Positions 18,111-32,711 of a DNA stretch of 64,000 bases are shown one piece after another. The stretch comes from Tetraselmis striata (Eukaryota > Chlorophyta > Chlorodendrophyceae > Chlorodendrales > Chlorodendraceae). The first letter of the stretch is position 1. Each line of letters begins with the position of its first letter. The position numbers and the translations under genes are program-made. Where the stretch lies: the NCBI GenBank assembly GCA_006384855.1, contig VCJN01001768.1:282501-346500 (forward strand). Reading direction: 5' to 3'. The notes under the pieces are model-generated. The model saw only the letters and a program-made list of their open reading frames with translations. It did not search any database and was not told the origin of the DNA.

Positions 18111-18834
18111 TTTGCCAGTCTTGAGCGAAGGTAGAGAGCGGTGGATTGACGGAGAAGGGGTAGCGCCAAGTCATGAAAGAGGCACTGGGAAGGCCACCGC
18201 TGCGGAGTCCCGTTGGACTTGGAAGTGGCGGAGGGGGGCGATGTGTCCAAAGAAGAACCACGCGCCAGGAGAAGGAAGAACGTTGGGGTCGATGTAGTCC
18301 AGAACGACATCGGAGTTAGTGGCCCAACCGCCCTGGTAGCGGATGTGGGACAGTGGCGCTCCGATGGCGTTTGCTGCAGAGGCTGCGCCCTTGCGTAGAC
18401 TGTGTGAAGTCCAGGAAGTGCCAGCAGGGGGGACAACGTTGACTAGGTTGACTGCTGTGGACAACCAGTCTGACATCGTAGCCGCAGTCCAAGGTTTTGA
18501 CTGCTCAGCCACATTGACAGCCCAGAAGTTGGAGGCAGCCAAGCCAACAGTAACCAGGGGGACAGATTGGACGTTGTCGATGAAGTAGCGCAAGAGACGT
18601 GCCACTCGAGGGTGCTCGGACACTGGAAGGAGGAGTACGCGCAGGTCGTTGGGTCCCTTCCGGCCAGCGCGACCCTTCTCGCGGTAGATCTGCAAGGTGA
18701 TGTTGTAGGTGTCGACATGCACATCTTGCACTCGACAGGAGACGCCAGTAAGGCCCCTGGCAAAGAACAGGAAGTTGACAACCGAGGCCAAGAGGGCTCG
18801 GTAGTCGAGGTGGGACTCTGGGTAAGGAGCAGAC
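18111..18834 (-). CDS. Tyrosine recombinase, catalytic part (fossil element)
   Basis: Minus-strand frame with SWTSHSLRKGAASAANAIG and IRYQGGWATNSDVVLDYID, the HxLR and (H/W)-containing boxes of tyrosine recombinases, followed by the region expected to hold the nucleophile. The N-terminal half of the same protein family lies at 31750-32711, on the other side of the inserted DNA transposon. Such recombinases integrate a circular DNA intermediate without a target duplication. Confidence 0.75.
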
Positions 18835-18857
18835 AACAGTAATGTAACCTATTTTGC
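18835..18857 (+). repeat. Left terminal inverted repeat of the 12.9-kb transposon
   Basis: 23 bp, one mismatch to the right end (31720-31742). Confidence 0.88.
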
Positions 18858-18949
18858 CCCGAGGCACGCGGTGCATTGTGGTTAGGTCTAAATTAGGGTT
18901 TGGGGGCAGCTGTGGGATTGAAAGCTAATATGAATGCCGGTTGATTCAT

Positions 18950-19165
18950 TTTGTGCCAAGTCGGGGAAACCAATTCCGTCCAAGCAGGGACAAATCAAAA
19001 GAGTGAAGGAAACGGGATGGTTACAAGAAGTTTGCGCCATCGCGGGGGCTGAAACTCTGTCCAAACTGGGACAAAAAGAAGTGCGGAGGCCGTGATGGCT
19101 ACAAGCAGTTTGTGCCGTCCGGGGCTGAAACTCTGTCAAAGCCGGGACAAAACATATGAGCGGCT
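18950..19165. repeat. Left subterminal repeats with GTCC/GGACAAA palindromes
   Basis: About three degenerate copies of a 70-75-bp unit (GGCTACAAGCAGTTTGTGCC, then GGGGCTGAAACTCTGTC). Each is followed by GTCCAA-N-GGGACAAA. The same inverted motif recurs at 30805-30880 and 31525-31545. Subterminal repeats of this kind are commonly transposase binding sites. Confidence 0.65.
19021..19025 (-). terminator. Poly(A) signal TGTAA of the methyltransferase-like gene
   Basis: TTACA on the + strand, about 160 bases beyond the stop codon. Confidence 0.4.
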
Positions 19166-19182
19166 AATTTTGCGGAATTGTA

Positions 19183-22100
19183 CTACATATCATCATCTTC
19201 GATCACATAATCCCCTCGGCGCTCTGCCGCCTCTTGCCTCCTCTTCTCCGCCGCTGCACGCTCTTCCCGCTCCTCTAACTCGGTCATTGGAAGGGGTAGA
19301 CCCGGCCACTTCTCGAAGTCACTTGGACGCAGTCTTTGAGTCTCGTCCCATGGCTTCTCTTTGAACCATGAGGTCATCCTGGACTTCATCCCAGCGATTT
19401 GCGTCTTCTGGTTGTCAATGAGGATAATCTTCAAGTTCATGTGCGTGAACGAGTAGGTAGATTCCATATGGTCCCACCACACGGAAAAGGCCGCAGCGAC
19501 CTGGAAAAGGCGTGGCAAACCGCACAAGGCGTTAATTTGTTTATGCTGACCCCATTAAGACACTCACCCGGGTTGCACCCCTCACGCACCGCGGTTGTCC
19601 CGGTTCCGGCTGTGACGTCGACGATTGTTGTCCCGTCTGTTGCCGCCATCTTAAGGTGCTTGGCGAAGAGAGCGATAGGCTTTTGGTACTTGTTCACCGT
19701 CTGTCTGTTCTCGTCCTTCAATTTCGAACTGTCTTTGAAGTGACCCAACATGATGGATGTAGAGAACCTGGAAAGGCACAACCGGCTTAGCGAGTAGAAT
19801 ATACAAGCCGGCTATTTTCCACGGATCAAATCTCACCTTCGGGGATCATTGAAACGGATGTTGTCAGCTATGATGCTTGGCGGGGGCTTCCTGACGTAGA
19901 GGTAGTACTCAGCGTCGTGACGCAGAGAGCTGCCCATCTTCATCCCGCAATCCTTGGCCCAAGTCAAGACGTGATAGATGAGGTCCTCAGCTTGTTTTTG
20001 AACGGCTGTGATTGCGGATCCAAGTTGCTGGTCCGAGAGGTGAATGAAGAAATGGCACCCATCGAGAGCAGTGTGGACGTCAGAAGATCCAGTCAGGATA
20101 TTCAACTGCCTGCGCGGGGGTAAATCGGGAATGAGATAAATGAAAGCACAGTCATCTAGTACGCACCGGGGTTGTTGGGGTTGTCTTGCCTGGCGAAAGC
20201 AAACACGTCGTTGAAGTCGTCCGTACCCCACGCAGCATCCTTCGAGTCCCATGTGTGCGAACCAGCTCCGAAAAGCGCGTCGGCAATGAAGACTGTTGCC
20301 TTTTTGGCACGAACTGCCGACATGGCGTCCGCGGCGAATTGTTTTGTCGCGGGAGCCTTGAAGTTCCCCTCCACAATGCAAGTCTTGCAAAACTCCGTGT
20401 TCAACCACACCTTGTCATCCTTGTCGACCTCGCAGCCCTTGGGCATCACCGGAAGTGCCGCGGCCTGTGTGTGGTAGGAAACAGATTCGGGTTAATAGCT
20501 CACAACGAAAATTCAGAAGAGCATTTGTGGTTGCACAAGATCTTAGTTACCTTCATCGATATCCACAGCTCATTAGAAACATTCGGAGCGGAAACCGCGA
20601 TAAGCTCCGGCGCACATGCCAGAAGAGCAAACTCTGTGAAGAAGGAGATGACCAAGTCCGGCATCTGATTCTTGATGCGATACGCCTCACTCCTGATGGT
20701 GGTGTTGGTGGCCGCGATATGCTCTCGAACCGGTAGTGGTGTGAGACAATCGGCGGATTTCATGTCCCCCCATCTGGCCGGAGGGGTCAGCAAGACCATC
20801 AACGGACCGGAGCGATGAGCACCTTTGAACAAATCCTGGAACTTTCTAGGGAAGCCTGTTGGGCCGAGGTCATCAACCTTGGCTCGGAACTTGGTGATGG
20901 CGTCAAGGCGAGCGGCCGCTTGCTCATCCGACACTTTGTCATCCACATCCATTTCGATGATGTGGTCCGAGAGATATTTCCCCCAGTTCCTGGCCGGTTC
21001 GTCCGGCGTCAGCAGTTGGAGTTCCTGTCCGTGTCCCTTTGCCGTGCCAATAGCATTCATGAGCTTGATGCTTGCTCGACGCAAGAGATCGCGAAACCGC
21101 CAGGTCTCAATCATCGCGAGCCACTCCGCGTTGGTGTGCGTAACAGCCATGGGGCCATTGTTGCCGGCATGCTTTATGTCATCCACCAACTCGTAGAGGC
21201 AAGGGTTCACACTGTGCTCGCCTTGGATGAGCAGTCCAACCACCAGGTACATCTGGCCCACAGGGAGATCCGCGCTGTCGCTCTGCTTGGCAAGAGACGG
21301 CTCGTCTAGCCAGGGCGCATGGGGTCCAAAGCCGACATCCTGGGTCGAAAAACAAACTTCAGTACGGAGAAAGGAATCAATGATAGTATTCCATATGATT
21401 AAGACACTGGGGTCGGTCACAACTTACCTCCATGAGGGCGACTCGGAAGTGAGCTCTGTCTTTCCCGAAGCCGTACTTCTTGTTATCGAGGATTGTATTG
21501 ATAGGCTTCCGAATTGCTTCGTAAACCTTGCTCACTTCCTTCTGGGTGAGTTGCCTGCCGTAATTGAGGCGCTTGACTCTATTGAGTTCTTGCTCGTAGT
21601 ACACCAATAGGTCTCCGAGTTTGGTTCTGGCTTCGTCCCATCCTCGAACCCCGAGGTCCACATGCCGGTAGGCTTCAGAAATCTGCTCAAGTGGCTCAAA
21701 AACACTGCGCAAATCATTTGTCAGAATCTAGCAGCATTAACAACACGATAAATTTTCATCATGTACGCAGCTCACCGTTGTGGGCGCGAGCAGAGGTCAA
21801 TCAAATTTGAGAACTCGCCGCTCTTCTCATCTTTGATGCCGATCTTCTCAAGTTCAACTTGAAGAACTTCAGACTTCTTGAACTCCTTCACTACCCTGAT
21901 TTGCGGAAGTGCCCTAAAGCCGGGGCGATTTGCATCCTGTTCTGCATACCATCTCTCGAAACATCTGCGAAGGTTCTGCAGAAACAATTGCACCGATTTC
22001 AAAATTCCGAACGCTTGTACCTCGATGACAAACCGTTTCGTCCCGCTGATGACAGAACATTTCGTCCCGTTGATGACAGAATGGTTCGTCCCACTGATGA

Positions 22101-25100
22101 CAGACCGTTTCGTCCCACTGATGACAGACCGTTTCGTCCCACTGATGACAGAACGTTTCGTCCCGCTTATGACAGACCGTTTCGTCCCGCTGATGACAAA
22201 CCGTTTCGTCCCACTGATGACACACCGTTTCGTCCCACTGATGACAAACCGTTTCGTCCCACTGATGACAAACCGTTTCGTCCCACTGATGACAGAACGT
22301 TTCGTCCCGCTGATGACCAACCCTTTTGTCCCGCTGATGACAGACCGTTTCGTCCCACTGATGACAGAACGTTTCGTCCCACTGATGACAAACCGTTTCG
22401 TCCCACTGATGACAGACCGTTTCGTCCCGCTGATGACAGAACGTTTCGTCCCACTGATGACATACCGTTTCGTCCCACTGATGACAGACCGTTTCGTCCC
22501 ACTGATGACAGACCGTTTCGTCCCGCTGATGACAGAACGTTTCGTCCCACTGTGACATATTTTTAACCCGCTAACGACAGAACGACTTTTGTCACACTTT
22601 ACGCCTATTTGCTGCCACGGTTAGCTAAATAGTAATTTGGGAGAATGGGTCACTCACCAGGAGTTTGTGCATCGACGTGTCTCCCACGACGGTGTGACCC
22701 GCCTCGTTGAGCTTCATAGACATGTAGCGGCAGACTTCCGGCGAGAGGCCGATGTACATCTTAGTCGACGTGAGGTGGATGCCTTTGTTGGCGTTGTAGA
22801 TTTCCGGGTAGTTTTCTTTCACCATGCGCTTCGCCTCCCGTCTGTGGCTGCCGTCGATGTTGGCTTGACGCGCGGCGTGGGCGCGAAGAAACTCGACGAT
22901 GACGTCGATCTCTGGCTTGTAGGAATTTGAATCCGCCAACCTCGGGTTCTCCCCGCCTTCGTGTGCTGCGACTAGCTCCTTGAAGTTGGCCATGGTCTGA
23001 GCGAGGGGCTCGTACTCATCGGAGAAAAAATCTTGTTTAGGGACTACTGGAAAGGACACCGAGAAATTCTCGGCGGACAGGGAAGGATTTCTCTGAATAA
23101 CAAATGCAAGAAATGGATGTCAGTAAGTTGCATTGTGTATTGATTTATATGTAACTACACATATCTGATCCGGATAGGTACAACAGGTCGCGATAGGCTT
23201 TTACCTTGTAGCTTTGCGCCACCATATTGCAGTCTTGCAGCTTTGGGGAACGGAATTCAAATTCCGGCGGCGGAGCGACGAACTTATCGGATATGAAGCT
23301 GAATATGTAAGGCAGCCCCGTATCCTTGTTGACCACGAGGTTGACTCTGTCGGCGTATAACATGTTGATGTCGCCACCGTGAGATGTCTTCACCTCTGGA
23401 TCAGCAATCTCGACTCTGAGGTGGCCGTAAGAGATCCAGTCGACGGCACCGGTGTTGTGGAAGCCATTCAAGGCCGGCGGGACGGCCAACGTGTTGACGT
23501 ATGGAAGCGCGTTCTTAAAATCCTTGTCAATGTTGGCCAAGTCATCGATGTCAATCTGACCCGACGCGAAACCTGTCAGCGCTTGCGCCAGCACATTGCG
23601 CTCGACCAAAGTCCATGCGTAGTAAGACTGGAACCGCGGTTGGAAGGAGAGTGGCGGTTGGATCGCGTGGAGTAGCAACCTCTCAAAGCTGACATCGATC
23701 CTGAACTCCTTGTGCACTGTCAAGCGATAAGGTTCAAGAGATATCTGCGGTAACAAGCACAAGAATATTAATACTTATTGAAACACGACATTGACACGAA
23801 TTCAGACATCATATAAGCTTTACTCACCTCGTAGTTTCCGGCCGAGTCCAGCTCGACGTCCTTGATCTTTCCGATACACGCGAGAAGTGGCCCCTTCGGA
23901 TCATCGAAAAAGTCCTTGCCAGTCAGCAGGCTCGCCTTGTGCAATTCGATGTACAAATAGATCTCGACCTCAGCACTTGCGTTCTTCAACCAGTGGATAG
24001 TCCAGCTCCTTGAGGTAAAGTCGTTGTAGGAGTCATCTTCTTGGGACCCGTCCCTCTCGTCAAAGAAGTCGTCGTAAGAGGCGACCGTCATCAGCTTTGT
24101 CTTCCTCTCGGGTCCGGGAGTGCCGGTGATGTCGAGAGCTTGCTTACGCTTCTCCGCCGCCCGTTGCCTCTGTTCTTCCTCTGTGCCGAAGACCTCTTCA
24201 TCCGTGCACATACTGAGGAATTCAGGGAACCCTTCTCGGAGCCTCGGCAATAGGGGCTCGAGAACCAGAGGCTCCAGAACCGGACGCTTGCCCGGTAGTC
24301 GGCGCTGGAGTCTCGAGCTCGGCCTCTGGCTCCGGGTCAAGCCGGGTGGGCTCGGGCTCCGGCTCGTGCTCCGGCTCGGGCTCCATCTGAGCGGGCTCAG
24401 TTTCAGGCTCATGCCGAGGCTCTGGCTCGGGCTCATTGGGCTCTGTTTCAGGCTCCGGCTCGGGCTCCGGCTCCGGCTCAGTGTGCTCTATTTCAGGCTC
24501 AGGCTCTGTTTCCGGTACTTGAGGCGGGCCTTTAGACAAAGAAGAGCCTTGATTCGGGGAACCTGTAAAGAATGAGTAGAGAGTACTCAACACACCTGCG
24601 GTGGGCGTCACGATTAACTACTGAACGGTATCGCCATACACCATCAAAGCCAAGCGTAATTTTTCTTACCTGGGGAACCCGATTTACCAGCTGCTTCCGA
24701 CGTGGTTGCCTGCGCCAATTTACGACCTGTTGGAACGTCAGATAACTCATTGACGAGAAAGTATCGAAGGGATTGAGAAGGCAGGGATTGATACTTTCAG
24801 TCACAATTACCTGGAGTCACAATCGTCTCTGAAACCTTTTCTTTTCCCTTGGATTCCTTTGAAGCTTGAGTCGCTACTGGCTCATGTGCACGTCCTTTCG
24901 AACCAGAAACCTTTTCTTTTCCCTTGGATTCCTTTGAAGCTTGAGTCGCTACTGGCTCATGTGCACGTCCTTTCGAACCTGTCAACACACATGATTTTAA
25001 ACAATGTGAATGTGACACAGTGCACTCACAAAGGCAGGGATTGATACTTTCAGTCACAATTACCAAGAGTCACAATTGTCTCTGAAACCTTTTCTTTCCC

Positions 25101-26808
25101 CTTGGATTCCTTTGAAGCTTTAGTCGCTACTGGCTCTTGTGCGCGTCCTTTCGAACCTGTCAACACACATGATTTCAAACAATGTCAATATGACACAGTG
25201 CACACACAAAAATCATGTGATTGGAGAGGCAAGGACCTGATTCATAGTAAGCTTGCATGAGCTTTTCGTAATCCATTAGCCTTCGCGCTGTCTGCATTTG
25301 AGCATCTGAGAGCACCTGACCGCTCTTGATTCGGTCCCTCAAAAGCAAGGCGGCCAATCTTTCTCCTTGCGAATGCGTGCCGTAAGCCGTCACCCTACCT
25401 CCTAAAAGGCTCGGTTTCCAGGGGTTACCTGATGCCTCAGCGCCGGTTCTAGCTGCAGAAGCTGAGGCTGCACTTTTCTTCTTCGCCGCCGGCTGCTCTG
25501 GCACAGAAGATGACGCCTTGTGTTTTCTCCCTACTAGCGCTCCGAGCGCATCGAATTCTTTTGCTTTCTCGGTAGGTTTTGATGTCCGCTTGGACCTTCG
25601 GCCTACAAATATCATACCCTGTCAGATCGTTTCGTCCCGCTGATGACAGACCGTTTCGTCCCACTGATGACAAACCGTTTCGTCCCACTGATGACAAACC
25701 GTTTCGTCCCACTGATGACAAACCGTTTCGTCCCACTGATGACAAACCGTTTCGTCCCACTGACGACAAACCGTTTCGTCCCACTGATGACAGACCGTTT
25801 CGTCCCACTGATGACAAACCGTTTCGTCACACTGATGACAAACCGTTTCGTCCCACTGATGACAAACCGTTTCGTCCCACTGATGACAAACCGTTTCGTC
25901 CCACTGATGACAAACCGTTTCGTCCCACTGATGACAAACCCTTTCGTCCCACTGATGACAGACCGTTTTGTCCCACTGATGACAGACCGTTTCGTCCCAC
26001 TGATGACAAACCGTTTCGTCCCACTGATGACAAACCGTTTCGTCCCACTGATGACAAACCGTTTCGTCCCGCTGATGACAAACCGTTTCGTCCCGCTGAT
26101 GACAAACCGTTTCGTCCCGCTGATGACAAACCGTTTCGTCCCACTGATGACAATCCGTTTCGTCCCACTGATGACAAACCGTTTCGTCCCACTGATGACA
26201 AACCGTTTCGTCCCACTGATGACAAACCGTTTCGTCCCACTGATGACAAAACTATTTTCAATACATTATGTACTGCGGTTTAATAATGTTATGTCTTGAA
26301 GTACTGCGCTTCACACTAATATTAAACCACTCCTTACGGCGGAGTACGGGCAGATGTTCCCCCATGGCCGCTATTCAACCCCACCCGCTCCCACCACCAA
26401 TTAGCATCCTTACTGCTTGCCGCAGCTGCCTCGACGGGACGTAATACTACCCTGCAGGACCCTGACGCCGCTCCTCTCGTTTGGGTTTCTATTCCCACTC
26501 GTCTGCCTACACCTCCAGCGGTCCTAGATTACACCGCTTCTACAGGGAACCCTAACCGAACTCGCTAGATCTGGCCGCATCACGCGTCGAGCAGGCAGGC
26601 GGCTACTGTACGCTGCCACTCGTCTGCCTACACCTCGAGTGGTCCTAGATTACACCGCTTCTACAGTGAACCCTAACCGAACTCGCTAGATCTGGCCGTA
26701 TCACGCGTCGAGCAGGCAGGCAGCTACTGCACGCGCGCGCAACTCACCTGGGGTGGCGTCGTCCTTGTCTTCCTTGTCCTTGGCAGGCTCGTTCTTCTTC
26801 GGCGCCAT
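19183..26808 (-). CDS. Transposon-borne protein with C-terminal DNA amino-methyltransferase-like domain (15 exons)
   Basis: Inferred exons: 26808-26748, 25602-25237, 25156-25064, 24978-24811, 24726-24670, 24563-23828, 23744-23205, 23092-22658, 21975-21776, 21704-21428, 21339-20551, 20464-20163, 20109-19837, 19767-19590, 19500-19183; about 1,600 residues. The start is Lys-rich, followed by repeated [20 protein letters not shown] units, a Glu-Pro-rich stretch, and long unrecognised regions. The last four exons read as a beta-class MTase: [20 protein letters not shown] (catalytic-motif position), [24 protein letters not shown], then [17 protein letters not shown] (SAM motif I) and LIDNQ. That order, catalytic motif before motif I, is typical of N6-adenine/N4-cytosine MTases. 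The canonical DPPF/DPPY is replaced by DALF, so activity is doubtful. All splice phases fit except one frame change in the Glu-Pro-rich exon near 24230-24290. The in-frame TGA at that exon's end implies an indel or an unseen intron. Confidence 0.62.
22022..22560. repeat. 24-bp satellite array 1, in an intron of the methyltransferase-like gene
   Basis: About 22 copies of ACCGTTTCGTCCCACTGATGACAA-type units (given here in two parts: ACCGTTTCGTCCCA + CTGATGACAA). They lie between the donor at 22657 and the acceptor at 21976. Three positions vary repeatedly: CCCACTG or CCCGCTG, ACAAA or ACAGA, and ACCG or AACG. Because 24 is a multiple of three, frames stay open through the array on both strands. 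Confidence 0.9.
24790..25160 (-). repeat. Duplicated exon block (three SKGRA...EKVS units)
   Basis: Exons 25156-25064 and 24978-24811, with their flanking introns, are near-copies. Exon 24978-24811 itself holds two units back to back. The lengths are multiples of three, so the frame survives. Confidence 0.8.
25625..26262. repeat. 24-bp satellite array 2, in intron 1 of the methyltransferase-like gene
   Basis: About 26 copies of the same 24-bp unit, mostly the CCCACTG/ACAAACC form, in the same + orientation as arrays 1 and 3. The flanking splice sites are donor CAG/GTGAGTT at 26748/26747 and acceptor TTTGTAG ending at 25603. Confidence 0.92.
26480..26735. repeat. Tandem duplication of about 120 bp in intron 1
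   Basis: CTACACCTC(C/G)AG(C/T)GGTCCTAGATTACAC... through CACGCGTCGAGCAGGCAGGC occurs twice, at about 26508-26600 and 26630-26720. Confidence 0.8.
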
Positions 26809-27239
26809 TCTGGCGGTAGGTAGGTTGACGCGGTAGATGAGCGGGTTTCTTGGTGGGAAGCGGTGAGGGAGAGGTGGAAATGACGTGGTTTCTGTCTGCC
26901 GCCGCTCTGACCCCTGCTGGACAAACGGCGCGCGTGCGCACACTATAGTGTACCTCGTCGTTGTCATCATGTTCATGTATTTTGCACCGCGACGAATATA
27001 CAGGGCTAACTACTGCGACTATATATTACTATTACTGGAAGATAAAATATTCCCTACTCGAGAGTCATAACGGTACGAGAGTACAGTGGCGTGGCAATAA
27101 TATTCCTTCATGGGATGATATATTCCTTGGATTGGATTCGGGTGTACTTACTAGTATAGAACTATTTCCGACATACGAAAGAAGCACGAAATAACACGGT
27201 ATTTGAGTCATCAATTATTTTGACCCGTAGCTAGATATT
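26809..27239. promoter_or_regulatory. Shared upstream region of the two divergent transposon genes
   Basis: 431 bases separate the two start codons (26808 leftward, 27240 rightward). Each gene has a satellite-filled intron near its 5' end. I see no certain TATA box, though AT-rich stretches such as ATATATTACTATTACTGG occur. The divergent layout suggests coordinated expression. Confidence 0.5.
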
Positions 27240-30200
27240 ATGCCCCCCGGTCAACGGCCCGTCCGAGAACGGTCATCGGCCGTCACTCTTCCTCACCACA
27301 GATCACAGTCCTTCACCCCCCCCCTCCCCACTCGCCCCGCGTTGCATGGCGGCGGTCGAAAGCATGGCCTCTTCTCCAGGATCCGGCGCATCGGACACTA
27401 CACTTACATTACCGACGTGTCGTGCCGCAGCGGGTACTCGTGTGATTGCGACGCGCGTGCGAGTGATCGTAAGGAGCCTGAGAAAAGGAAGTACACGTGG
27501 GGCAAGGGCTCCGATGAGGTCGCCGAAAGCGATAATGGCAAGGTCTCGTCTCTGATCAGCAAGCGCACCTCTCGCGATTGTATCCGCCTCATGCTCGCCA
27601 AGGAGGCTAGCGAGCAGTCGCCATGCTGTTCGCGCAAGTGCGTGCACAAGCTATACACACAGTGCGGAGAGGCCCTCGTTGATGCCGTGTTGGACCGTGC
27701 GTTGACCGTATACTCGGGCAATCAGAACCGCTCCTTTGACCGGCTCGCTCAGGTTCTCAGGGGTGGCTACGAGTCGGCATCCGACAAGTTCGATTACATG
27801 TTCGATCACGGTGGCTACTTGCGATCTTTCGATCATCGCGGCCCCATCTACACGTGTGGGCGTGCGTGGGAGGTCTTGCATCAGGTCTCGAAACACAGAC
27901 GTCTCGTGCTCCAGCGGTCGGTGGTGGATAACGAACCCACGTACATCAGGCAGCGCAAGCAATACGAGAGCAGACAGACCGGACCGAGGGAGCATGTGCG
28001 CATGTTTCTCGAGCACTTCTTCTCGGATGACCTCGGTCACGTCGAGATCATGCCTTTTCATGACGGAAACAGCGAGACCTTCAAGAAGCACCTACCTCCC
28101 TGGATGACCAAGATTTGCGTCTACTACTACTACAAGTCGTGGGCCGAGGACGACAACGCCATTCTCCGTGGTGAGGCCCATTTTGTCCCACTGATGACAT
28201 ACCGTTTCGTCCCGCTGATGACAAACCGTTTCGTCCCGCTGATGACAAACCGTTTTGTCCCGCTGATGACAGACCGTTTTGTCCCACTGATGACAGACCG
28301 TTTCGTCCCGCTAATTACATACCGTTTTTGTCCCGCTGATGACAAACCGTTTCGTCCCACTGATGACAAACCGTTTCGTCCCACTGATGACAAACCGTTT
28401 CGTCCCGCTGATGACAAACCGTTTCGTCCCGCTGATGACAAACCGTTTTGTCCCGCTGATGACAAACCGTTTCGTCCCGCTGATGACAGACCGTTTTGTC
28501 CCACTGATGACAGACCGTTTCGTCCCACTGATGACAAACCGTTTCGTCCCACTGATGACAAACCGTTTCGTCCCACTGATGACAAACCGTTTCGTCCCAC
28601 TGCTGACAAACCGTTTCGTCCCGCTGATGACAAACCGTTTCGTCCCGCTGATGACAAACCGTTTTGTCCCGCTGATGACAGAACGTTTCGTCCCGCTGAT
28701 GACAAACCGTTTTGTCCCACTGATGACAGACCGTTTCGTCCCACTGATGACAAACCGTTTCGTCCCGCTGATGACATACCGTTTCGTGCCGCTGATGACA
28801 AACCGTTTCGTCCCGCTATCGCCAGAACGTTTAGTCCCACCGACGCCGGACCGATTTCGTCCCACTGATGACAGAACGTTTCGCACCGCTCATGGCATAC
28901 CGTTTCGTCCCACCGACCACAAAAGTATTTCTCCCACATAATTAGCCGATATCGTCCCCCTGCAGAGAGAACGTCTTGTCCCACTGCTGAGAGACGGTTT
29001 TGTCCCACCACTGACATACCGTTTCGTCACACTGATGACAGATTGTTTCGCCATGCTGATTACATCATTATTCACCCACTACCGATATAATTATTTCGAC
29101 CCACTTTAGACCGAACTTTTCTGTCTCGCAGTATGAGACCTTATTTGTATACCGACCTATCATGCCCCTGCCCCTTTGTAGATTTGGCTACCGAGAGCGA
29201 AGTGAAGCTCGCATCCTTCGACACTTTCCGCCGGACTTGGAAGGAAGACTTCCCGGATGTCACCACGCCGAAGGTGAAGCGATTCAGCCACTGTCCCATA
29301 TGCGCGGCCGGCAAAGCACTCAGAGACCAAGCTCGCGAGATTTGCACAAAGGACATGACGCCTGAGGAACGTCAAGTGCACCGTCAACATCAACAGCTGG
29401 TGAGGCGTCAGGTCAGAGCTGAGCAGAAGGTACACCTCGAGAGAGTGCGCCAGGAACGAAGGGATCTGAAGAACGCCGTCTTCCAGTCGCGCCTTGGCCA
29501 TGGAAACTTCTTCTTCTTCGAAACTGATAGCATGGACTCCGCGAAGACCCTGCTGCCTCACTGGGTTCGCATCCCCAAGACTGTGAAGCCCGACATGCTC
29601 CTCAAGTACCACCTCACCTGTGTGAAGTACGACGGATACCGCCCGGACGACATCTACTACTACACCAACACCATCCCCCACGATTCGTCCACGACGTGCA
29701 CTCTGATATGGATCACGATCATGAAGGTGAGATCGTTAGCCTCCCGATAGGTTCGCCGTGGTTGTCCGGTAGCCCTGGACTGATGAAATCTGGTCTGCGA
29801 TGCAGGAAATTCAACACCGTGGTAGAAAGATTCCGTACATCAGAATCCAGATGGACAACACCGTCAGGGAGAACAAGAATAGGAACGTGGCGGCCCTCTG
29901 CAATTGGCTTGTGTCTATCGGCATCTGCGACGTCATTCATTTGGTCTTCTTGCCTGTCGGGCACACTCACGAACGGGTTGACCAGATCTTCAGCCGCATC
30001 AGTCTTGCGCTATCTCGCAGCTCCGCCTACACAATCGAGGCCTTTCTTGACTTGGTGGCGAAGGCATTCTCGCCCACTCCGGAGATTGCTGAGCTCTCAT
30101 TCTCCCTCGACTTCTCTGAGTGGTTAAGGCGCCATTTCCAAGACCACATTCAGGACATCAGTAAGCCGCACAAATTCGAGTTCACCCGTGACGACGCCGC

Positions 30201-31453
30201 CGCGTCTGGCGGCTCGTTGCGCACCGCCTTGTGGTCCAACACACCGCTTTCTGAGCCCGTGCAGATCTTGAAGAGCGCGCCAACTGGTACGCCCGAGATT
30301 CGTGCGGGCCGGCCCCTTTTGTACGCTCTCTGCGACAAAAAGAAGCCCGACGCGGTGAAGGTCCAGAGGTACTTGGATGATTTCAAGAAGGTCATGTCGT
30401 ACATCACGGACCTGGCGGTCCAGTGGCACTTCTCCCCAGTCGAGCGCGAGAGCTGGAAGAATCTGCTCGACGACTTGGATGAGATGCAAACTGCTCCTTC
30501 GGCAGCTTTCTCCGGGTTCTGGCCGCAACGGAAAGAGGAAGTTGACGACTTCTTGCGCGGGCACGGGCAGACCGCGCCTGCTGAGGCACGTCACACGATG
30601 GCTACCAACGCAGACCTCAACAATGCCAAAGCCGCTCGCGTGGAAGCCGAGGTTCGTGCTCAAGTGCTTCAAGATGACAGCGCCTTCCGGGGAGTTCACG
30701 CCGGCGCCAAGGAGAGGCTTCATGACAACACATCGCCCTGCGATGCAAAGGGCTCGAACCTCGTTGTCATCGACGTCTCCGATGTGAGTCCCATTGTTTG
30801 TCATTTTTGTCCTTTACGGGACAAAACAATTTGGTTCTTCTACCTTGCTTGTTATTTTGTCCCAGCTGGGACAAAAATGGCGTGGCGTCTCGCTCGGGAC
30901 TAACATAGCTCGCGGTCTTGGTCATCGTTAGGTGCATGAGGAAGACAAGTGTCCTGAAACTCTTGGTGATTGGGAGTCGAGATTCGTCATCGGGCTTGTG
31001 AAGTCGCGCGAGACTACCGAAGACACGTTGACCGTGGCCGTATACGAGCCCTTCCATGCCGATGCAAAGGGCAAACCCCTCATGCCCCTATGGTTGTACG
31101 CGCAGACAAAAGGAGGGAAGAAGCCAGTTGACACAAGCTGGGAGAAGTGCCTGACGCTTCCTTGGAAGCTTGTTGAAGCCGTCCCCCTATCGTACGCGAA
31201 GGCCATCCACGACGCGTCGGGAAGTCGAGAGGTGTTCAACGAGGACGGCACCATGGTCAGAAAGAAGTGGTACGGTAAAAGCGTCCAAGTCGTGAAGACA
31301 TATGCGCAAACTGGGTGGCAAATCAGCCAGCCACGAAACAACTGCGTCCACGTCATGTCAACCACCCCAGCGCAACGCAAACCCGGCGGAGTCGTCAAGT
31401 TTAACGCAGCCACGAAGAAGGACTTGCTTGAGTTGGGGATGCTCAACGAATAA
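27240..31453 (+). CDS. DDE-type transposase-like protein of the 12.9-kb transposon (DUF7869-like), uninterrupted
   Basis: Exons 27240-28170, 29182-29726, 29806-30783 and 30932-31453 join in phase to 991 codons without a stop. Residues 1-310 are basic, with a CC..KC motif. Then come FSHCPIC (Cys 348/351), a helical region rich in Arg and Gln, and FFFFETDSMDS (Asp 426/429). IQMDNTVRENKNR follows (Asp 509), then FLPVGHTHERVDQIFSRIS (Glu 548, Asp 551). The DN...NKN and GHTHE-VDQ blocks are what I know from DUF7869-type proteins; together with the ETD they suggest an RNase H-like DDE nuclease. The C-terminal exon (WESRFVIGLV and onward) is unrecognised. TGTAA lies at 31487-31491. Intron 1 holds satellite array 3; intron 3 holds two GTCC/GGACAAA palindromes. 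The start at 27240 is the first ATG in frame and could be further downstream. This copy may still be functional. Confidence 0.7.
28180..29110. repeat. 24-bp satellite array 3, in intron 1 of the transposase-like gene
   Basis: About 29 good copies to 28875, then progressively degenerate copies to about 29110. They are enclosed by the donor CGTG/GTGAGG (28170/28171) and the acceptor CCCTTTGTAG ending at 29181. Same + orientation as the other arrays although here the gene runs rightward. Confidence 0.92.
30805..30880. repeat. Two GTCC/GGACAAAA palindromes in intron 3
   Basis: TTTGTCCTTTACGGGACAAA and TTTTGTCCCAGCTGGGACAA. They match the subterminal motif at the element ends. Confidence 0.7.
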
Positions 31454-31486
31454 ACTATCAGCAACGTCTTGTGGCTAGCCGATGGA

Positions 31487-31491
31487 TGTAA
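31487..31491 (+). terminator. Poly(A) signal TGTAA of the transposase-like gene
   Basis: Lies 34 bases after the stop codon. Confidence 0.55.
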
Positions 31492-31719
31492 TCATCATAA
31501 TAAATATTGATTTCATTGCCTCATCTTGTCCCATTTTGGACAAAATGCTCCAAAACCAACATTGGATATGCGTCGCGGCTGGCCTGCACGCTGATGAATG
31601 CTGCACTGCACCCAAGGTCTACAAACCCAAGCTACATCACCAGTGAGTCTTAAGTACTGATAGTAGACCCGGGAACTAGGGTATAAACAAACCCTACGGT
31701 GCAAAATGAATTCCACGGC

Positions 31720-31742
31720 GCAAAATAGGTTAAATTACTGTT
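31720..31742 (-). repeat. Right terminal inverted repeat of the 12.9-kb transposon
   Basis: Reverse complement of the left end with one mismatch, followed by the AGAC duplication at 31743-31746. Confidence 0.88.
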
Positions 31743-31749
31743 AGACACA

Positions 31750-32711
31750 ATTAGCTCGGCTTTTGAGACGAAGCGGTAGGCTACATCCGCAGGCAGAGGG
31801 ACACGTAAAGGGGCAGCGTCCAGTCGGCGCTGACGCAACATTAACCCACGTCGTGCCGAAGTGAGGTGTAGGCTGTCCTTGGCGATCGGGACGAGGTTGT
31901 GCAGCTCGAAGAAGGTGTTGATGGCAGACAGGTAGGGCTGCAGCGACTTAGCTGCGATGTGCCCTCGCTCCCCGATCAAGGCAACGTACCGAACAACAGT
32001 AGCAGTAGTCGCTTCCAGCGGGCTGATGTTCTCGGAGTCGCGGCAGAACTCAGCGAACTGAGACAACCTGCCGGCGTAGCTCTTGAGGGTCTGAGCGCTG
32101 AGGGACCTGGAGAGCAGGTCGAGCGTCCGCTGGCCTAGCTCGTCTGAGCCGAACGCGTCCTGCAGTCGAGATCGCAGTGACGCAGCCCATGGAGCGATAG
32201 CTGCGGGCTCGTCAATTACGTAAGTGCGTCGTTTTACTGACAGAGTTCCACCGGCACGGCTACTGTTCGCAAAGTACTCGGCAGCAACAGTTAGGTTCCC
32301 GGCGGTTGGCCGGTAGTTGCTGGACGGGTTTGCAGTAGCTCCAGTACGGGTTTGCGGGGCTAGGTTCAGGTAGGAGGGCCGCCCCGCGCGCCCTTCGCGC
32401 TCATAGCGCCTGTCACGTGCGTAACGTACACGCGCGAAACTTGGTCGTTGCGAACCGGTTGTAACACGTAGTGTAACAACCGACGAACGCAGAGATGGGG
32501 TTGTAAGAAAGGCGGATGGTTGAGCCGCCATGTGCAGGCGTGCGGCGGATGGTTGAGCCGCACTCGGCTGTAGCTGTAAGAAGCGCCGCACCGAGGAAGG
32601 TCTAAATGAAGTCTGTAAGGTGGGGGGGTCAGGTCCTGACACAGGGCGCTCATCCCGCCGTTGAGCTGCAAGGGTGCGTCTTGCGGCGGTCACCGAAAGG
32701 TGGCCTCGCAA
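31750..32711 (-). CDS. Tyrosine recombinase, N-terminal core-binding part (fossil element)
   Basis: The minus-strand frame contains LSAQTLKSYAGRLSQFAEFC, VRYVALIGERGHIAAKSLQ and YLSAINTFFELHNL, the helical SAM-like core-binding domain of tyrosine recombinases, preceded by a low-complexity N-terminus. It ends at the inserted DNA transposon; the catalytic part lies at 18111-18834. Confidence 0.72.

Follow-up and report, generated by a model that had tools for sequence, protein, structure and literature searches.

To our knowledge, the ways in which transposons defend themselves against silencing are known in detail for few systems. In the VANDAL elements of Arabidopsis, as described in the accessible parts of two reports, a second element-encoded protein, VANC, binds short tandem-repeat motifs, which lie in introns and noncoding regions, and erases silent marks; the target motifs diverge between related elements (PMC5735166, PMC10398659). 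Fungal DNA transposons with TET/JBP dioxygenase genes have also been reported (PMC12730594, excerpt), and the algal transposon Sola1-1_Ec32 carries a ParB-methyltransferase gene, whose product is suggested, in the available portion of the authors' text, to bind and modify the element itself (PMC12477816). Here we describe a 12.9-kb element at positions 18835-31742 of a 64,000-nucleotide stretch of Tetraselmis striata contig VCJN01001768.1 (hereafter the window, part of contig C1430 in our analysis). The element contains two divergent multi-exon genes, a rightward gene for a putative DUF7869 transposase and a leftward gene for a methyltransferase-like protein, together with intronic arrays of a short word. 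The best joint explanation, which we hold with somewhat less than even confidence, is a DUF7869 transposon whose accessory pseudo-methyltransferase would recognize the element's own core word and serve in anti-silencing or complex assembly.

Since an algal transposon with a methyltransferase is already in print, elements of this kind are known. Like Sola1-1_Ec32, as far as its accessible description goes, the element in the window is a large algal DNA transposon with an N4/N6-type methyltransferase domain encoded opposite to the transposase strand. The original prediction had named no superfamily with this combination of features; the general idea of an algal transposon with an N4/N6 methyltransferase turned out to be published (PMC12477816, available portion), whereas ParB was not found here in Pfam scans at permissive E values (small exons 1 and 3 to 5 were partly covered, and a very divergent domain is possible). 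Unlike in Sola1-1_Ec32, the transposase matched only DUF7869 and motif IV of the methyltransferase domain is altered, and intronic word arrays are not mentioned for Sola1-1_Ec32 in the accessible text (PMC12477816). As far as the literature searched reaches, what is new is a transposase of the DUF7869 type, a changed motif IV, and the arrays of a short word. A 4-bp target-site duplication (TSD) is shared with Sola elements (Sola2 according to an excerpt of PMC3627910), but TSDs of Sola2 are described there as AT-rich, whereas here only AAAT and ATTT among ten consist entirely of A and T. Like the fungal TET/JBP transposons (PMC12730594, excerpt), the element carries a protein of DNA-modification type, albeit of a different enzyme class.

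The element is bounded by 23-bp terminal inverted repeats (TIRs) at 18835-18857 (forward strand) and 31720-31742 (reverse strand), which match with a single mismatch (G/T), and is flanked by the TSD AGAC at 18831-18834 and 31743-31746. Ends, mismatch, and duplication were exactly as originally predicted, as judged from the window sequence, further copies, and the empty site. In the 224 Mb of genome searched, the TIR 23-mer with the mismatch base left free occurred 248 times (128 forward, 120 reverse), and the reversed TIR used as a control did not occur. The search for further copies with the same ends, as had been proposed, also yielded 11 more whole copies, so that 12 copies including that in the window were compared, allowing up to 3 mismatches in the TIR. 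The element ends were present in all 12, and a perfect 4-bp TSD was found in 10, every one different (AGAC, AAAT, CCTA, CTGC, AGTA, ACAC, ATTT, GTTC, GTTA, and TCAC); the exceptions were the copies on contigs C200 and C226. Moreover, the empty site, composed of the flanks and a single AGAC (240 bp), aligned end to end with 98-99% identity at all 40 places scored among 1382 first-look candidates. TSDs in the copies together with empty sites therefore demonstrated precise insertion with a 4-bp duplication. By its TIRs, fixed-length TSD, and empty sites, the window element is a mobile cut-and-paste DNA transposon, and its family comprises about a hundred or more copies in T. striata. That a chance inverted repeat merely encloses unrelated genes has next to no probability: nothing was found in its favor, and the 248 TIRs, the TSDs, and the empty sites refute it. 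The sequences flanking the element (18715-18834 and 31747-31866) are themselves a copy of another highly abundant repeat, which hosts the element.

Exon borders and splice sites of both genes were read from the DNA sequence and are thus predicted. The rightward gene comprises four exons on the forward strand (27240-28170, 29182-29726, 29806-30783, and 30932-31453, the last with TAA at its end) and has 991 codons before the stop (991 amino acids). The hidden Markov model search suggested in the original prediction gave matches above the cut-offs for both genes. DUF7869 (PF25273) matched the rightward protein with an E value of 3.7e-43 (147.8 bits versus a cut-off of 26) over the end of exon 2 and exon 3. 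Alignments of homologues and copies placed a first proposed catalytic Asp in exon 2, within ETDSMDS in the window and EIDSMDS in the 8 other copies holding these exons, while exon 3 contains MDNTVRENKN and GHTHERVDQ. The homologue search returned 55 proteins, 50 of them from Tetstr1 (taken to be T. striata) and 5 from other contigs; at 20-21% identity, DUF7869 proteins encoded on other contigs share the ID(G/S) Asp, the DN block, and GHTHE..DQ. All 8 other whole copies holding these exons retained the first Asp and the DN block, and GHTHERVDQ was found in 7 of them (not in C140). The DUF7869 protein thus carries a D-D-E-like arrangement by sequence and, given the conservation of this pattern, may catalyze transposition. 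Its profile had no match among solved structures up to an E value of 10, KDZ (PF18758) did not match the transposase (a genome-wide KDZ search matched nothing, controls included), and no description of DUF7869 was found within the literature searched.

The leftward gene is predicted to run from 26808 down to ∼19183 on the reverse strand in ∼15 exons. Gene structure, copies, and annotated homologues delimited exons at 26748-26808, 25237-25602, 25064-25156, 24811-24978, 24670-24726, 23828-24562, 23205-23744, 22658-23092, 21776-21975, 21428-21704, and 20551-21339. The last four exons (20167-20464, 19837-20109, 19590-19767, and 19186-19500) encode a beta-class methyltransferase-like domain, as judged from Pfam, gene structure, and motif alignments. 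The two divergent multi-exon genes of the original prediction were thus confirmed at the level of predicted exons and Pfam matches, except that the leftward reading frame of the window copy is broken once, within exon 24562-23828; annotated models of other copies read through. A Glu-Pro-rich and peptide-repeat part lies near the N terminus. A perfect 75-bp direct duplication at 24831-24979 within the leftward coding part doubles a 25-residue peptide.

PF01555 matched the leftward C terminus with an E value of 4.2e-7 (30.6 bits versus a cut-off of 26.7), and no Pfam family exceeded its cut-off in the upstream parts scanned. When a profile of the leftward protein was compared with PDB, all 8 matches up to an E value of 1 were methyltransferases, if weak ones (E values of 0.076 to 0.54): two named only as methyltransferase, CcrM, RsrI twice, DpnA twice, and EcoP15I. 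The S-adenosylmethionine (SAM)-binding motif I and the preceding QKP are kept. As in CcrM, RsrI, and DpnA, motif IV lies before motif I, and QKP and GTT surround the latter; unlike these bacterial proteins, the leftward protein has DALF in place of DPPY and is encoded by a eukaryotic multi-exon gene inside a transposon. A sister methyltransferase-like family in the same genome (loci L071, G000:C2208:346500-355500, and L065) shares 27% identity and has an acidic C-terminal tail; taken alone, this family matched CcrM with an E value of 3.6e-4. Judged by sequence, the leftward C-terminal domain is a descendant of a bacterial-type beta-class adenine/cytosine-N4 DNA methyltransferase (PF01555, CcrM/RsrI-like). 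Profiles, copies, and selection bore out the core of the original prediction, namely that one TIR-bounded element combines a DDE-like transposase and an amino-methyltransferase-like protein.

Homologue searches with the leftward protein, in which only the best 8000 candidates by shared words were scored, returned 63 proteins in the first round, all from Tetstr1, and 114 in the second, of which 113 were from Tetstr1 and the other one (P0124) was a JGI sequence. Exon 19837-20109 begins with 34 residues that were absent from all 168 fetched proteins and public gene models; they are suggested to be coding because the sister family aligns across part of them. A viral origin of the methyltransferase was also considered: a pattern search of viral contigs gave 165 stretches, none of which was confirmed with the methyltransferase profile, and the one homologue tried against phage records (P0005) had no match.

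Active N6/N4 methyltransferases carry (D/N/S)PP(Y/F/W) as motif IV, with DPPY being catalytic. Judged from its residues, the leftward METHYLTRANSFERASE is probably no such enzyme. Where motif IV would be expected, it reads ADALFG rather than DPPY; among the 67 of 113 fetched homologues covering this place, 61 had DALFG and the remaining 6 varied (e.g., DALLG, or a motif lost by deletion or shifted out of frame in the gene model). (D/N/S)PP(Y/F/W) was found nowhere in any of the 113 homologues, and DALF was unchanged in the alignable element copies. In the sister family, phmmer aligned ADSNYG to ADPPYN of CcrM, a stretch worth only 2.5 bits, and two further relatives from the same genome have ADCPRAPPAG and ADARPG. 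Motif I was kept in all four family members, none of which has PP(Y/F/W) in the motif IV position. For comparison, two methyltransferases encoded by virus-like loci of this genome have DLPYG there. Because DALF replaces DPPY across homologues, writing of N6-methyladenine (6mA) or N4-methylcytosine (4mC) is doubtful, and we infer from the lost DPPY that the leftward protein lost methyltransferase activity.

These data bear directly on the alternative that the leftward protein is an active 6mA/4mC writer, marking its own element as permissive chromatin or protecting it from nucleases. This would be in line with the PF01555 match above cut-off, the kept motif I, and purifying selection over most leftward exons. 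For the comparable ParB-methyltransferase of Sola1-1_Ec32, the authors predict 4mC or 6mA writing (PMC12477816, available portion), and in Chlamydomonas, according to an excerpt of another report, 5-methylcytosine is confined to transposons and 6mA lies on expressed genes (PMC12695648), so that a 6mA mark written by the element itself would be plausible. In addition, some activity would be possible from sequence, given that all four family members keep the motif IV Asp and two of them the aromatic residue. Since DALFG prevails in the homologues and the PP motif is missing from all of them as well as from this place in three relatives, however, we regard an active writer as unlikely. In the proposal of the original prediction that the element may mark or read methylation on its own DNA, the marking part was thus weakened, while reading and escape from silencing were left standing and gained from the element-specific arrays described below.

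Three 24-bp minisatellites, an addition to the original prediction, lie in introns: 22.3 units in a leftward-gene intron (22024-22557), 26 units in leftward intron 1 (25628-26250), and 30.4 units in transposase intron 1 (28181-28911). They share the core TTTYGTCC, which occurs 82 times in the element, 75 times in the three arrays and 7 times as isolated sites. The isolated sites were two near the left end (GGACAAAA at 19069 and 19145, within 19069-19152, reverse strand), four in the last transposase intron (30805-30876, with a TTTTGTCCC-AGCT-GGGACAAAA palindrome), and one near the right end (31538-31545, reverse strand). The 7761 exon bases contained no TTTYGTCC and the remaining 51 kb of the window one. 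The 7 sites in 3077 noncoding bases outside the arrays compare with a mean of 0.2 and a maximum of 4 in 1000 dinucleotide shuffles. Arrays and isolated sites (the two left subterminal sites, a matching four-site cluster in the last transposase intron, and the right subterminal site) were found in 12 of 12 copies, among them three gene-poor derivatives, in which one array is inverted. In the 8 copies with both arrays apart (window included), the first array held 6 to 21 core sites and the second 14 to 34. A 19-mer of the 24-bp unit occurred 6224 times in the genome, with no occurrence of the control; the first 100 places listed fell on three contigs (C18, C24, and C30), each with a TIR, methyltransferase, or DUF7869 match of the element family.

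The position of the isolated sites is relevant to a second alternative, according to which the leftward protein binds repeated subterminal sites and pairs the ends with the transposase, without any role in silencing. A structural partner of this type is TnpA of En/Spm, whose sites are subterminal. Isolated sites within 0.35 kb of both ends in all 12 copies and the retention of ends and arrays by deletion derivatives agree with such a role, but most sites are intronic and kilobases away from the ends, and we consider a purely structural partner rather unlikely, if less so than an active writer. Still less probable, in our estimation, is that the minisatellites are intronic slippage products and the methyltransferase-like gene is a captured, unlinked passenger. 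Wide variation in unit number between copies, tandem repeats inside the coding part as well, and two leftward exons lacking purifying selection would fit such neutrality. Against this account stand the recurrence of the 8-bp core as single sites, in both orientations, at either end and within the last intron of the transposase gene, the arrays of a different word in a second methyltransferase-like family, and purifying selection on the leftward gene as a whole.

Gene content of the copies was scored with 15 exon queries, with leftward exons 1 and 3 to 5 left out and exon 6 represented by its second half (M6b) only. Transposase exons 2 to 4 and at least part of the methyltransferase domain occurred together in 8 of the 11 other copies, and all 15 queries matched in six (C821, C140, C154, C54, C226, and C48), although the match of C140 to the first transposase exon was limited to 59 of its 310 residues, and C226 and C48 contained stops. 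Internal deletions were present in C753, C140, and C1001. The original prediction had named copies lacking one of the two genes as evidence that would speak against it; in three of the 11 (C470, C586, and C200) most of both genes is indeed lost, but the ends are kept, as are transposase exon 4 and a portion of the final leftward exon. Because they retain the same ends and arrays, these copies look like nonautonomous offspring. The copy on C470 (L047, L048) is a deletion derivative with a ∼1.5-kb unit present three times in tandem; its 7-kb relatives C586 and C200 showed none of the long frames of this unit. In public gene models, methyltransferase and transposase are paired by adjacent numbers (e.g., TSEL_018301/018302, 021276/021275, and 023705/023706). 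The transposase of the TSEL_023705/023706 pair was 77% identical to the commonest form in a multiple alignment, and the values of 60-65% in the homologue search are partly due to exons missed by the models.

The pooled ratio of nonsynonymous to synonymous polymorphism (pN/pS) among copies was 0.31 in the transposase gene, compared with 0.55 in the leftward gene, after dropping 14 exon-copy pairs with gaps or less than 75% identity and excluding locus xL005, a repeat of the C1001 copy. Exon 20167-20464 was the fastest changing of the 15 tested (pN/pS of 1.67), with most changes located ahead of the methyltransferase motifs, among the first 25 residues of the exon; these residues are a possible specificity region.

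The sister family comprises at least a dozen near-intact exon copies. Between its open frames and exons, the sister methyltransferase gene contains two arrays built from another, clearly distinct 25-bp word (GCATGCGTCC-type), which occurred 333 times in the genome, with no occurrence of the control. No partner transposase was evident nearby: among the 12 best sister places and the best 150 of 548 candidates, the only scored DUF7869 match was on C2865, 236 kb away. Likewise, there was no scored hAT dimer-domain match near L071 or on contigs C401, C144, C536, C611, and C761 (best 150 of 327), and no Pfam match in the minus-strand open reading frame (ORF) pieces of L075.

In the preferred reading, the DUF7869 transposase would act on the 23-bp TIRs and make the 4-bp target duplications, while the accessory leftward protein, with motif I kept and DPPY lost, may recognize the core word TTTYGTCCC, present in tens in introns and as single sites near the element ends. 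By covering or remodeling its own element copies, it might shield them from silencing or aid assembly of the transposition complex; we infer both core-word binding and an anti-silencing effect by analogy. The logic would be convergent on VANC of VANDAL transposons, with a pseudo-methyltransferase as the binder. As in the VANC systems (PMC5735166, PMC10398659, accessible parts), a second element-encoded protein with variable, internally repeated regions goes along with a short tandem-repeat word in introns and noncoding DNA that differs between related families. The host kingdom is different, however, and the VANC domains DUF1985 and DUF287 (named in the available text of PMC5735166) were not among our Pfam matches; we propose that the resemblance arose by convergence. 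A bolder idea, which we offer only tentatively, is that algal transposons independently built sequence-specific anti-silencing from a dead, SAM-holding, array-addressed methyltransferase, with word and protein changing together at the family split (TTTYGTCCC versus GCATGCGTCC-type). If true, a second, unrelated system with its own protein and its own intronic repeated word would point to a general route. It would also suggest functions for DUF7869 proteins as transposases and for PPY-less beta-class methyltransferases as DNA readers.

Several observations weigh against this reading. Pfam scans found no known DNA-binding domain in the leftward protein, and a single-sequence comparison of its C-terminal half with PDB returned no methyltransferase, but ETS proteins only (E values of 0.4 to 1.2). 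A stretch in exon 20551-21339 resembles the PP motif, ∼140 residues upstream of the domain; it varies among 17 homologues (TPPA, TPFA, TPLA, APPA, TSPA, and once DPPA). Two of the 15 exons, M8 (pN/pS of 1.01) and M12 (1.67), the latter holding the DALF motif, showed no purifying selection as wholes. The absence of TTTYGTCC from exons is by itself not significant, since 151 of 300 exon shuffles also contained none, and the arrays could be neutral repeats. As for the sister family, a scored methyltransferase match was present on only 6 of 20 contigs in the first 100 listed places of its word, and in L071 this word was not found isolated outside its two arrays.

The genome contains further methyltransferase loci. 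L072 (C1117), L073 (C2214), and L074 (C1590) are more distant relatives of the leftward methyltransferase-like domain; L072 and L073 lack PP(Y/F/W) at the motif IV place, and this place is not included in L074. By eye, L059 (C1010) and L060 (C2009) lie on bacterial-looking contigs, with a type-III-like modification methylase in L059, and possibly represent assembly contamination. L062 (C803) and L063 with L061 (C1597) are N6/N4 methyltransferase loci, L062 and L063 being those with DLPYG. In these two, the methyltransferase adjoins an ORF resembling a C5-type methyltransferase and a tyrosine-recombinase-like ORF, and we take L061 to L063 to resemble polinton-like viruses.

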